Positions 22,684-40,448 of a stretch of 64,000 nucleotides of DNA are shown piece after piece (position 1 is the stretch's first letter; every line of letters begins with the position of its first letter). Source of the stretch: a virus. The translations under genes were made by a program, and so were the position numbers. The stretch spans positions 1-64,000 of IMG/VR virus record IMGVR_UViG_3300042516_002421; one strand, written 5' to 3'. The notes under the pieces are model-generated. The model was not told the DNA's origin. It made no database searches and was given only the letters and a program-made list of their open reading frames with translations.

Positions 22684-22712
22684 AATGTACCTGCTATGAA
22701 TGTAGGTGTCAA
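22684..22712 (-). promoter_or_regulatory. Promoter of recombination operon
   Basis: Reading on the minus strand: TTGACA (22707-22712, perfect), 17-bp spacer, TACATT (22684-22689, 4/6). Predicted start near 22677, about 20 bases before the ATG at 22655. It should drive 22655 down to 18964. Confidence 0.7.
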
Positions 22713-22750
22713 CAGGCGTCGAACCTAACTGTTGCAATGTAGGGAAAACC

Positions 22751-23038
22751 ATGAGACGAGCAGCAAGAGTTGATGCGAATCAGGAGCAGATTGTCAGCGC
22801 CTTGAGGACGTGTGGTGCTACCGTACGGGTCGTCACCCAGGGCGATGGACTGCCGGATCTGCTGGTTGGGTACCGCGGCTACACGATCCTCATGGAGGTC
22901 AAAGATGGCCGGAAGCCACCGTCTGCCAGGAAGCTGACTGAAGAGGAAGAAAAGTTCTTCCAGAACTGGAAGGGCGGTATGCTTGCCATAGTGAACAGCG
23001 TTCAGGAAGCCCTTGAACTGCTCAAGAGGTGTGATTAA
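22751..23038 (+). CDS. VRR-NUC-like small nuclease
   Basis: 95 residues from the ATG at 22751 with AGGG upstream. TQGDGLPDLLVGYRG followed by ILMEVKDGRKPPSARKLT gives the GxPD ... ExK catalytic pattern of VRR-NUC/PD-(D/E)XK nucleases found as short phage genes. It is transcribed divergently from the recombination operon and stands alone on + within a long minus-strand region. Likely a junction or nicking nuclease; the substrate is unknown. Confidence 0.75.
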   Translation: MRRAARVDANQEQIVSALRTCGATVRVVTQGDGLPDLLVGYRGYTILMEVKDGRKPPSARKLTEEEEKFFQNWKGGMLAIVNSVQEALELLKRCD

Positions 23039-23278: not shown

Positions 23279-23308
23279 TTGACAGGGGCTTAAAAGATCC
23301 GGTAAAGT
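23279..23308 (+). promoter_or_regulatory. Promoter of structured RNA
   Basis: TTGACA at 23279-23284 (perfect), 18-bp spacer, TAAAGT at 23303-23308 (4/6). The predicted start near 23312-23316 coincides with the first hairpin of the RNA, and no open reading frame of note follows. Confidence 0.6.
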
Positions 23309-23311
23309 TCG

Positions 23312-23441
23312 TTCCATTGCTAGGCAGTGGAATGCTAAGCAAGAGCCGATAAGTCAGATCCCGACCCCGTAATGGGGTTGCGCCAGTCCAAAAGATTGGT
23401 GTCATTCCACCGGGGTCTGTCTTATCGGCTTTTTTGTTTTC
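23312..23441 (+). ncRNA. Candidate structured small RNA with intrinsic terminator
   Basis: A 5' hairpin TTCCATTGC/GCAGTGGAA (23312-23332) is followed by a long stem: AGCCGATAAG (23344-23353) pairs with CTTATCGGCT (23421-23430), and after one T-T mismatch CAGATCCCG pairs with CGGGGTCTG. Inside are two hairpins, ACCCC/GGGGT and GCCAGTC/GATTGGT. A T-run (TTTTTTGTTTT) follows. Several pairs are G-U only in the plus-strand transcript, which fixes the strand. GTGGAATG (23327-23334) can also pair with CATTCCAC (23403-23410), giving an alternative fold. No known family was recognised. Confidence 0.6.
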
Positions 23442-23834: not shown

Positions 23835-24020
23835 TTAGACAGCACGCTGGTGCTCGAGAGGGTCGTACTTCTTAGATTTGTCGATGATCTGGTTGTCAAA
23901 TTTGATGATCAGGACTTTCTCACGGATGTACTGGCACTCGTTGTATCGGTGCAACCACTGCTCGTCACCTGTACTTTTGTACAAGTTGCGAAGTTCTTCG
24001 AGTCGTTCATTCAAGTTCAT
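23835..24020 (-). CDS. Small hypothetical protein
   Basis: 61 residues starting MNLNERLEELRNLYK, charged and helical. It overlaps the next upstream gene by ATGA-type coupling and is the last gene of the minus-strand small-gene block. No domain recognised. An operator-like palindrome (23970-23983) lies inside it. Confidence 0.55.
   Translation of the reverse strand: MNLNERLEELRNLYKSTGDEQWLHRYNECQYIREKVLIIKFDNQIIDKSKKYDPLEHQRAV
23966..23989. promoter_or_regulatory. Operator-like palindrome inside a coding region
   Basis: TGTAC-TTTT-GTACA (23970-23983) with right flank AGTTGC. Over 24 bases it matches the palindromic operator at 38604-38627 at 20 positions. It lies within 23835..24020, so it may be a real binding site or a coding coincidence. 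Confidence 0.3.
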
Positions 24021-37700: not shown

Positions 37701-38534
37701 ATGCCAAACCGCAAAACCGATAAACCGATGCCCAGAGCCCGTGTGCGCGAAGCGCTGCAGTCAGTCCCCTTGCACACTGTATTAGGGGAAGCACATAGAG
37801 CACTAACACCAAAGCAAAGGAAGTTCGCGTTAGAAGTCGCTAAGGGAAGCACTAAGGCGGATGCCTATAGATCAGCCTACAACGTCAACAGTTCCGCTAC
37901 GCTCACATCAAACCCGTACCATCTCGCGGCAGACAGTAGGATACGAGCAGAGATAGAAGCTATAGAACTAGCTATGAGAGCGCAGGAATACCAAACCCCC
38001 ACAGCCTTACGACAATTGGTGATTCATTCTCTAGTCAAAGTGATCACAGACCCTGATTCAAAGCCAGGCCAAATCACTGCAGCGGCTAAGGTGCTGGGCA
38101 CGGTAACGGAAGTGGCAGCGTTCACTGAGCGTAAAGAGATACGCCGGGTTTCGGACAGTGAGTCAGCACGCACGGCCATACTTGACGAACTCAAAGCACT
38201 CATGAAGCATGACGCGACGGATGTAGATGCGGTGGACATCAGCGCCGACAGTCTACTGGCAGAACTCGAGAGCGCTGGCAGAACCGCGGACACCCCTGAC
38301 GAAACGACAGAGCCAGGCGCCGACCCCCACCGTACCCCCACCCCCCCTTTTGACGCGCCGCCCGACGACTTGTATAAGCATACTATCCCACACGAAGGGT
38401 ACCCTCATTTTTCCCAAACCACCAAAACTGCCGACAGCGACTCTAGCGAAGACCCCCCCTTGCCTTTGTTGGCAGGGACCCCTACTGGGGAGTGTAAAAA
38501 TTTTGGCGTCCAGTCCGTTAAGGGCGATACATGA
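37701..38534 (+). CDS. terS: Terminase small subunit (probable)
   Basis: 277 residues from the ATG at 37701; a TTG at 37632 would add 23 residues but lies upstream of the promoter. LTPKQRKFALEVAKGSTKADAYRSAY is the helix-turn-helix signature of the small terminase, which recognises the packaging site. A disordered acidic/Pro C-terminus follows (about 210-277). It precedes the large terminase, separated by a regulator gene. The start may be leaderless. Confidence 0.75.
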   Translation: MPNRKTDKPMPRARVREALQSVPLHTVLGEAHRALTPKQRKFALEVAKGSTKADAYRSAYNVNSSATLTSNPYHLAADSRIRAEIEAIELAMRAQEYQTPTALRQLVIHSLVKVITDPDSKPGQITAAAKVLGTVTEVAAFTERKEIRRVSDSESARTAILDELKALMKHDATDVDAVDISADSLLAELESAGRTADTPDETTEPGADPHRTPTPPFDAPPDDLYKHTIPHEGYPHFSQTTKTADSDSSEDPPLPLLAGTPTGECKNFGVQSVKGDT

Positions 38535-38546
38535 CGTAACAATCGT

Positions 38547-38571
38547 CAACATGTACATTTGTACAAGATGG
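38547..38571. promoter_or_regulatory. Operator 1 upstream of LexA-like gene
   Basis: TGTACATTTGTACA core at 38552-38565 with left flank CAACA. Left half identical to operator 2; the right flank (AGATGG) deviates. Confidence 0.6.
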
Positions 38572-38603
38572 CCCTGTCAAATGAACAAGAGCTAACAACG
38601 GTA

Positions 38604-38625
38604 AACATGTACATTTGTACATGTT
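38604..38625. promoter_or_regulatory. Operator 2 upstream of LexA-like gene
   Basis: Perfect palindrome: arms AACATGTACA and TGTACATGTT around a central TT. Centre-to-centre distance from operator 1 is 56 bp. It lies 27 bases before the LexA-like gene. Confidence 0.7.
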
Positions 38626-38652
38626 GCTAAATATTACGCGATAGGAATTAGT

Positions 38653-38946
38653 GTGGATAAGGTGTTGATAAATCGGGAGATGAGGAGTGAGAAGAGTTAT
38701 GAGTGGTGTATGGGGGCTGGGATGACGCCGATGCAGAGGGAGGTGTTTTTGGTGATTGATGAGTGGTGGAAGGAGTATGGGTATGGGCCGAGTCTCAGGG
38801 ATATATGTGAGGTTCGAGGGAAGGCGGGCTTGGGGAGTACGAAGAAGATTATTGACAGGTTGGTGAGGTTGGGGGTGTTGAAGAGGGTTGAGCGGATGAG
38901 TCGGACGGTTCGGCCTGTGTATGTGAACTTTAGGAACCTGAAGTGA
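38653..38946 (+). CDS. LexA-type winged-helix regulator without peptidase domain
   Basis: 97 residues from a GTG start with AGGAA upstream. MTPMQREVFLVIDEWWKEYGYGPSLRDICEV...GSTKKIIDRLVRLGVLKRVE is the LexA DNA-binding winged helix in full. The LexA autoprotease part is missing, so it cannot be cleaved by RecA. The palindromes at 38547-38625 directly upstream are natural binding sites for such a dimer, giving autoregulation. It overlaps the large terminase start. Confidence 0.7.
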   Translation: MDKVLINREMRSEKSYEWCMGAGMTPMQREVFLVIDEWWKEYGYGPSLRDICEVRGKAGLGSTKKIIDRLVRLGVLKRVERMSRTVRPVYVNFRNLK

Positions 38947-40448
38947 AGATCTTGGATTTGATTGATAAGTTGGGTCCTGCGGAGAGGGAGAAGTTGTTTG
39001 CTCAGGTTCAGGAGTACAAGGGTGCTCTTGAGCGGGAGAAGTGTCAGACATCGTTCTTGGCGTATGTAAAGAAGATGTGGCCGGGGTTTATCCATGGCCG
39101 GCACCATGCTGTGATGGCTAAGAAGTTTGAGGGGATTGCGGAGGGGAAGATTAAGAGGCTGATCATCAACATGCCGCCGCGGCATACGAAGTCGGAGTTT
39201 GCTTCGTACCTGTTGCCGTCTTGGTTTTTGGGGCGGTTTCCGGACAAGAAGGTGATTCAGACCTCGAACACGTCTGATCTGGCGGTCGGTTTTGGCCGGA
39301 AGGTAAGGAACCTTGTTGGATCGGAGATGTACGCGGATGTTTTTCCTGACGTAACGCTGCGGCAGGACAGTAAGTCGGCGGGACGATGGGCCACTAATAG
39401 GAATGGGGAGTACTTCGCTATTGGTGTGGGCGGTACGGTGACGGGTAAGGGTGCGGATTTGCTCATTGTGGACGACCCGCACTCGGAGCAAGAGGCTGCT
39501 TCTGCGCTTGGAAACCCGGCAATCTACGATTCTGTGTACGAGTGGTACACATCCGGACCCCGGCAGCGTCTTCAGCCTGGGGGAGCCATCGTTATTGTGA
39601 TGACTAGGTGGGCTGAAAGGGACTTGACGGGTCAAGTTCTCAAGGACGCCATGAAAAGGAACAAGGAAGATGAGTGGGAAGTGATCGAATTTCCCGCCAT
39701 CATGCCTTCTAACAACCCACTTTGGCCTGAATTTTGGAGTTTGGACGAGTTATTGGCCCTACGGGAGGAGTTGCCGCCTAGTAAGTGGAACGCTCAGTAC
39801 CAACAGTCGCCGACCGGGGAAGAAGGGGCGATTGTTAAGCGCGAATGGTGGAAGATTTGGCCCAAAGATCAGCCGCCGCGGTGCGATTATGTGATCCAGT
39901 CGTGGGATACGGCGTTTACAAAGAGCGAGCGGGCGGACTATAACGCCTGTACTACCTGGGGCGTTTTCTGTTTGGACGAAGATCCTAGCAATGTCAACAT
40001 CATTTTGCTCGATTCCTTCAAAAAACGGATGGAGTTCCCTGAGTTGAAGGACGCGGCGCTCGAGCAGTACAAGATATGGCAGCCCGATTCGTTCATCGTG
40101 GAGGCCAAGGCCGCTGGTGCCCCACTGATATATGAGCTTCGCAAGATGGGCATCCCAGTACAGGACTACACACCCACTCGAGGCACCAAATATCAGCGAA
40201 ACGACAAGGTTGCTCGTCTAAACTCGGTCTCAGACATGTTCAGGAGCGGCAAAGTGTGGGCTCCAGACATGCGGTTTTCGCACGAATTGATCGATGAGAT
40301 GGCTTCTTTTCCGAACGCCGAACATGATGACTTGGTGGACTCAAGCACTCAAGCACTGTTAAGATTTAGACAAGGCGGATTTTTGAGGCTCAACTCTGAT
40401 GAAGAAGACGAACCCCAGTTTTTCCGTAGGCAGAGGGCTTACTATTAA
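38943..40448 (+). CDS. terL: Terminase large subunit
   Basis: 501 residues, GTG start overlapping the previous stop. The ATPase domain has a Walker A-like PPRHTKS (78-84), Walker B LLIVDD (173-178) and the TRWAERDLTGQ motif. The C-terminal nuclease domain begins SWDTAFTKSERADYN. This is the packaging motor that cuts concatemers and drives DNA into the prohead through the portal (next gene). Length and motif order are normal. Confidence 0.95.
   Translation: MKILDLIDKLGPAEREKLFAQVQEYKGALEREKCQTSFLAYVKKMWPGFIHGRHHAVMAKKFEGIAEGKIKRLIINMPPRHTKSEFASYLLPSWFLGRFPDKKVIQTSNTSDLAVGFGRKVRNLVGSEMYADVFPDVTLRQDSKSAGRWATNRNGEYFAIGVGGTVTGKGADLLIVDDPHSEQEAASALGNPAIYDSVYEWYTSGPRQRLQPGGAIVIVMTRWAERDLTGQVLKDAMKRNKEDEWEVIEFPAIMPSNNPLWPEFWSLDELLALREELPPSKWNAQYQQSPTGEEGAIVKREWWKIWPKDQPPRCDYVIQSWDTAFTKSERADYNACTTWGVFCLDEDPSNVNIILLDSFKKRMEFPELKDAALEQYKIWQPDSFIVEAKAAGAPLIYELRKMGIPVQDYTPTRGTKYQRNDKVARLNSVSDMFRSGKVWAPDMRFSHELIDEMASFPNAEHDDLVDSSTQALLRFRQGGFLRLNSDEEDEPQFFRRQRAYY

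Follow-up and report, generated by a model that had tools for sequence, protein, structure and literature searches.

A LexA-fold winged helix without peptidase ahead of terL: a probable phage autorepressor with clade-diversified operators

The locus described here raises the question of what a gene for the DNA-binding half of LexA does directly before the large terminase gene of a tailed phage, and which protein reads the palindromes in front of it. The locus lies in a 64-kb window, meaning the whole stretch of DNA that was analysed, which is part of a 66,442-bp virus record; the features are collected in Table 1. The 97-aa regulator matches LexA_DNA_bind (PF01726) over residues 23–85 with an E-value of 3.4e-7, its 30.4 bits lying above the gathering score of 23.7, and it matches PHROG_3502, a family with no function assigned, with an E-value of 3.7e-11. 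The AlphaFold model, for which an alignment of 53 sequences served as input, has a pLDDT of 86, and its best PDB matches are LexA and LexA–DNA complexes; 3jsp and 3jso, both LexA–DNA complexes, give Z-scores of 11.9 and 11.8 at 1.2 Å over 68–69 residues, and unrelated winged-helix (wHTH) entries in the same structure search fall below them, at Z of about 9. Similarly, 52 of the 53 diverse family members match LexA_DNA_bind and no other Pfam family (E<=0.001). By its profile matches and modelled fold, the regulator is a member of the LexA DNA-binding domain family with the LexA winged helix.

The reading frame stops after the wing, overlapping terL, and the C-terminal S24 Ser-Lys peptidase/dimerisation domain is absent from it, as is a dimerisation domain of any known type. 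The initial annotation had held that the gene encodes only the LexA DNA-binding domain, which is borne out by the PF01726 match and the lack of a peptidase domain in the gene. Peptidase_S24 was found nowhere in the 66,442-bp record, in a search that was positive in 10 of 14 control genomes. Since the S24 peptidase domain is absent, RecA-stimulated self-cleavage could not remove the regulator, and the predicted insensitivity to such cleavage fits the missing domain. HTH_3 (PF01381) likewise gave no match in the record, with 14 of 14 control genomes positive, and the phage CI/HTH_3 repressor class was rejected because this domain was not found. Neither a tyrosine integrase nor a serine recombinase was found in the record; with the S24 peptidase, both recombinases and HTH_3 all absent there is no sign of lysogeny, in a record that is possibly incomplete.

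Table 1. Positions of the genes, dyads and other features discussed in the text
Feature	Position	Strand	Remarks
terS, terminase small subunit gene	about 37701..38534	+	PHROG_51, 4.8e-7; upstream neighbour of the regulator gene
Intergenic regulatory region with both dyads	38535..38652		118 bp, from terS stop to GTG start of the wHTH gene
Predicted operator O1	38548..38569		AACATGTACATTTGTACAAGAT; core TG-N10-CA; 17/18 identical to O2
Predicted operator O2	38604..38625		AACATGTACATTTGTACATGTT; core TG-N10-CA; perfect 10-bp arms, TT centre
wHTH regulator gene, LexA DNA-binding domain only	38653..38946	+	97 aa, GTG start; PF01726, PHROG_3502, AlphaFold
terL, terminase large subunit gene	38943..40448	+	PHROG_38, 3.5e-110; Terminase_6C, 3e-11
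Candidate third operator core	23970..23983		TGTACTTTTGTACA; exact TGTACN4GTACA match; inside ORF 23835-24020 (-)
Structured non-coding RNA candidate	23309-23440	+	MFE -71.2, z -10.6; stem and T-run at the end

The position of the regulator between the small and large terminase genes, as first annotated, is confirmed by the PHROG matches of its two neighbours, and the start of terL overlaps the end of the regulator gene by 4 bp. Scans of viral contigs yielded 335 loci with the regulator gene, of which 225 are unique and 145 remain after dereplication by upstream sequence; the pattern-confirmed relatives number more than 500. A terL gene was found in 212 loci; in 211 of these the regulator precedes it on the same strand at a distance of less than 1 kb, and in 94 the two are within 20 bp of each other. 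Because the regulator stands just upstream of terL in nearly all of these loci, it would control the packaging/late operon, and the control of late genes proposed earlier follows from this position. Only four isolated phages were matched (tblastn, E<=0.01), weakly, and all of them infect Mycobacterium: the LexA-like protein of Cosmo, MaryV and their relatives, annotated in Cosmo as 'LexA-like DNA binding domain protein', has 31% identity to the regulator over 58 residues (E 3e-3), and GIL01 is not among the four. The scan of genome contigs returned a single relative, in a MAG contig labelled Geobacteraceae. A profile search with no positive control did not find the wHTH in five named phages with a related terL, and the open-access literature searched yielded no report of a terS-wHTH-terL arrangement.

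The predicted operators O1 and O2 are spaced 56 bp centre to centre, and O1 is a weaker copy of O2 with a 14-bp core in common. The initial annotation was right in placing two dyads before the gene, but its perfect 22-bp palindrome is not one because of the TT centre, and O2 is symmetric at 20 of its 22 positions. Shuffling the gap 3000 times gave the score of the 22-bp dyad in only 4 cases, and CATGTACATTTGTACATG, with up to 3 mismatches allowed, has 5 strand-wise matches in the window against 0.01 expected by chance. The sole stronger dyad detected in the 64-kb window is terminator-like and lies near 46.6 kb; this long dyad around 46,610, GAAAAAGGGGCCTTGTGCCCCTTTTTC, is probably a bidirectional terminator. 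The third core, which is missing from the earlier listing, is kept in a 98%-identical relative (L005/G010). About 0.07 such cores are expected by chance by our own estimate, and for this reason the third core is regarded only as a likely operator; judged by its sequence it is alone near chance level, yet distal copies occur in relatives too.

Dyads were scored by one scheme that can be applied to any sequence, a score of at least 8 being counted as strong. Strong dyads are present in 47% of the 145 dereplicated upstream regions; the corresponding shares are 2.6% for dinucleotide-shuffled sequences and 1.5% for control stretches of the same length from the terL region. About half of the 145 regions have no dyad above this strict threshold. 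When TG-Nk-CA with at least 5 of 7 flanking pairs was counted for k from 8 to 18, TG-N10-CA was seen 42 times in the 145 dereplicated loci against 1.6 expected, and each of the other spacings was seen 0–6 times against 0.6–2.0 expected. The E. coli SOS box is CTG-N10-CAG (CTGT-N8-ACAG), and the geometry of the TG-N10-CA sites in the relatives, as read from these counts, is the SOS-box register. In the first 43 dereplicated loci the half-site prefers T at 7, G at 6 and G/T at 5 from the centre; this preference is weaker in the wider set of loci, since entire clades there keep the frame but have different letters in it. The half-sites group by protein clade, with TAGAA accompanying the helix SMSNTSK, AGGGTAACA accompanying GRGNV, and TACTG accompanying many helices of the type GMGNT[AS][ED]; for instance, the operator is TTACTGGTAAATTTACCAGTAA in L011 and CAATGGAAACGTTTCCATTG in L022. 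In the L014 group the dyad sits behind an extra gene. In the TACTG clade (the own and distal sites of G005, L011 and L086) GTTATCAA stands to the left of the dyad and TTGACAAC to its right, extending it to an imperfect inverted repeat of about 46 bp.

This register allows for the possibility that host LexA reads the dyads, which would place the phage operon in the host SOS regulon and leave the wHTH as a decoy or as unrelated. The sites share the geometry of the E. coli SOS box, the TACTG-N10-CAGTA of one clade comes very close to it, and host LexA is used by GIL01 (PMC6182141); the register is constant, however, and the letters differ between phages, the operators of the window are ATGT-N8-ACAT and are without the C of CTG, and in the five wHTH-negative phages (a set defined with no positive control) the best dyad before terL is not of the TG-N10-CA type. 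Reading by host LexA is thus considered quite improbable. The regulator itself resembles E. coli LexA in its winged-helix fold (Z 11.9) and in the TG-N10-CA register of the sites before its gene (CTG-N10-CAG), and differs from it in being without the S24 peptidase/dimerisation domain, in carrying about 22 extra N-terminal residues and in having predicted operators that are private to each phage.

The copies of the dyad within one genome point to a phage-encoded reader. In 12 loci, 2–4 tandem copies of the locus's own dyad stand upstream of the regulator, such as two of the GAAATAAACGTTTATTTC type in L136, two of the GAATTAAACGTTTAATTC type in L141, and the pair in the window. Copies far apart in a genome also agree with each other: in G005 the site before the gene is TACTGGTAAATTTACCAGTA and its counterpart at a distance of 11.8 kb is TACTGGTCGATTTACCAGTA, with 2 differences in 20 positions; in G007 the two are TACTGTAAGTTCTTACAGTA and, at a distance of 13.6 kb, TACTGTAAGTTCTTTCAGTA, with 1 difference in 20; and G002 and G003 have exact TGGCAACGTTGCCA copies. 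The own operators of G005 and G007 differ from each other at 7 of 20 positions. Since distant copies change together, a factor acting in trans is indicated, and the LexA-fold protein encoded beside the sites would be the most economical candidate. The initial annotation had proposed autoregulation through these sites, and comparison supports it well, the dyads being in LexA register, phage-specific and altered together with their copies. In G004 (L036 record, 67,062 bp), eight TGGNAACGTTNCCA copies are distributed genome-wide, several of them in coding sequence, and the reversed control pattern has 0.

Across the loci, operator distance tracks protein distance (Mantel r 0.37), and the recognition helix shows no further link to the operator when the effect of all other residues is removed (partial Mantel r 0.016, p 0.36). 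No residue-to-base code between helix and operator is claimed on the basis of this partial correlation. Because operators follow relatedness and the helix adds nothing, matched specificity is supported for clades and not for residues; within the TACTG clade the inner N10 stretch, though still largely symmetric, varies between the operators of near-identical proteins.

It is also conceivable that the dyads act as RNA hairpins, in a terminator or attenuator, or that they belong to a cos/pac packaging element between terS and terL. A packaging site could well be expected at such a place, flanked by the terminase genes. Within 38452-38510, and at the equivalent place in relatives, a C-run/G-run and A+T-rich block is conserved between the end of terS and the dyads, with TATATTTTT/AAAAATTTT after the G-run; phages without the regulator likewise have A+T-rich runs ahead of terL, and this conserved block could be a packaging site or a promoter. 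Against the hairpin, no terminator-like site is present in 38350-38720, perfect centres such as AACGTT leave no loop, and the mismatches in the dyads include A-A and T-T, not G-U types only; against packaging, tandem copies and copies 10–15 kb away are unexpected for a single cut site. The hairpin or terminator reading was rejected on the missing terminator-like site and the mismatch types, and hairpin and packaging functions taken together are regarded as extremely improbable.

The analysis shows the fold and the synteny of the regulator, the dyads with their register, and the agreement in sequence among the copies; from these we infer binding, repression, late timing and a mode of relief. 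The LexA-fold winged helix would bind the TG-N10-CA operators of its own gene with two monomers per dyad, and the bound regulator would repress its own synthesis and the terL (packaging/late) operon that its gene heads. Relief would more likely come about by titration during genome multiplication, by turnover or through a further phage factor. The specificity would have diverged among phages, every operator copy within a genome changing in step. On these grounds, which are those of comparative sequence analysis, the regulator is probably a non-cleavable LexA-fold autorepressor that acts on its own gene and the terL operon through TG-N10-CA sites, with specificity diversified by clade. Counting against this reading are the upstream regions that have no strong dyad, the extra gene in the L014 group, the missing helix effect, the varying inner N10 stretches behind near-identical proteins, the distal copies that fall in coding sequence, and the lack of a sigma-70-like promoter in the gap of the window and of a known dimerisation domain.

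The sign of regulation has to be weighed against a known activator. It has been reported that gp6 of GIL01, a temperate tectivirus of Bacillus, is a truncated LexA homologue whose gene is grouped with the early ones; from a palindrome, GaCACA-nn-TGTGaC, centred at -43.5, it activates P3, the late promoter (PMC6182141). By analogy, the regulator could accumulate, bind a dyad upstream of a late promoter and recruit RNA polymerase, and the fact that its gene heads the terL operon is in line with this. However, the gap between dyad and start codon is less than 20 nt in 23 of 68 loci and less than 35 nt in 42 of 68, and dyads that lie near or overlap the start codon leave no room for a promoter between them, which makes activation there unlikely. 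In addition, no sigma-70-like promoter was recognised in the gap of the window, including downstream of O1/O2, and the gp6 gene lies away from P3, whereas the regulator here adjoins its own site. An activator of late transcription is therefore an unlikely reading, and repression, including autorepression, appears the likelier mode from the placement of the sites. GIL01 gp6 is nevertheless the closest precedent, as a phage LexA DNA-binding domain without peptidase that has its own palindrome and controls late genes; the domain architecture and the position of the present gene fit this, and its control of late genes is predicted from terL. The differences are that the present gene precedes terL in a tailed phage, that the spacing is N10, that the site is at the regulator's own gene and that repression is likelier.

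The autorepressor may also act at a second place. Five genomes have a copy of their own version of the operator 10–15 kb away beside a non-coding RNA candidate: G005 (locus L345), G007 (L346), G002 and G003 (L343/L344) and G004 (L354). In these five, one side of the distal copy has a leftward gene, with its start codon about 40–70 bp away in the cases with a called ORF; on the other side is a non-coding stretch, about 150–200 nt long and divergent from this gene, that ends in a terminator-like hairpin and a T-run; no Rfam or tRNA match was found in these stretches where they were scanned. The conserved distal motif TAGNRCNNGTCAACAG was searched for in ten further genomes and is absent except for two one-mismatch matches, and other distal copies, which lie inside coding sequence, may be due to chance. 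In the window, the structured RNA candidate of Table 1 is in the same early region and is preceded by a promoter-like TTGACA-18-TAAAGT at 23279-23308, with the third core 530 bp beyond; tRNA (ARAGORN) and Rfam scans of the window, this candidate included, gave no match. A small ORF nearby, 22706-23038 (+), presumably encodes a VRR-NUC nuclease, as recognised by eye. With such an operator next to both a small non-coding RNA candidate and a leftward early gene, the regulator may act at the distal site of these relatives too.

A regulator of this kind is already known from GIL01 gp6 and LexA; what is new is the terL setting, the predicted autoregulatory placement and the diversified operators. 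PHROG_3502, which is matched by all 53 diverse members and has no function assigned there, would be given one, as the present data suggest, and the DNA-binding half of LexA alone would be shown to serve as an autoregulator in tailed phages. The many protein–operator pairs, at one genomic position and in one geometry with changing letters, could lead to recognition rules for the LexA fold, and, if the distal site is functional, the control of packaging genes would be linked to a phage small RNA. The findings suggest that this group of uncultivated phages has its own, diversified form of the SOS switch, one which DNA damage cannot cut. More tentatively, a large uncultivated lineage might keep both its late/packaging operon and a distal early small-RNA locus under a non-cleavable LexA-fold repressor that has been re-specified repeatedly; if true, the lineage would offer a natural set of LexA operators with changed specificities, and these might define groups of immunity or exclusion.
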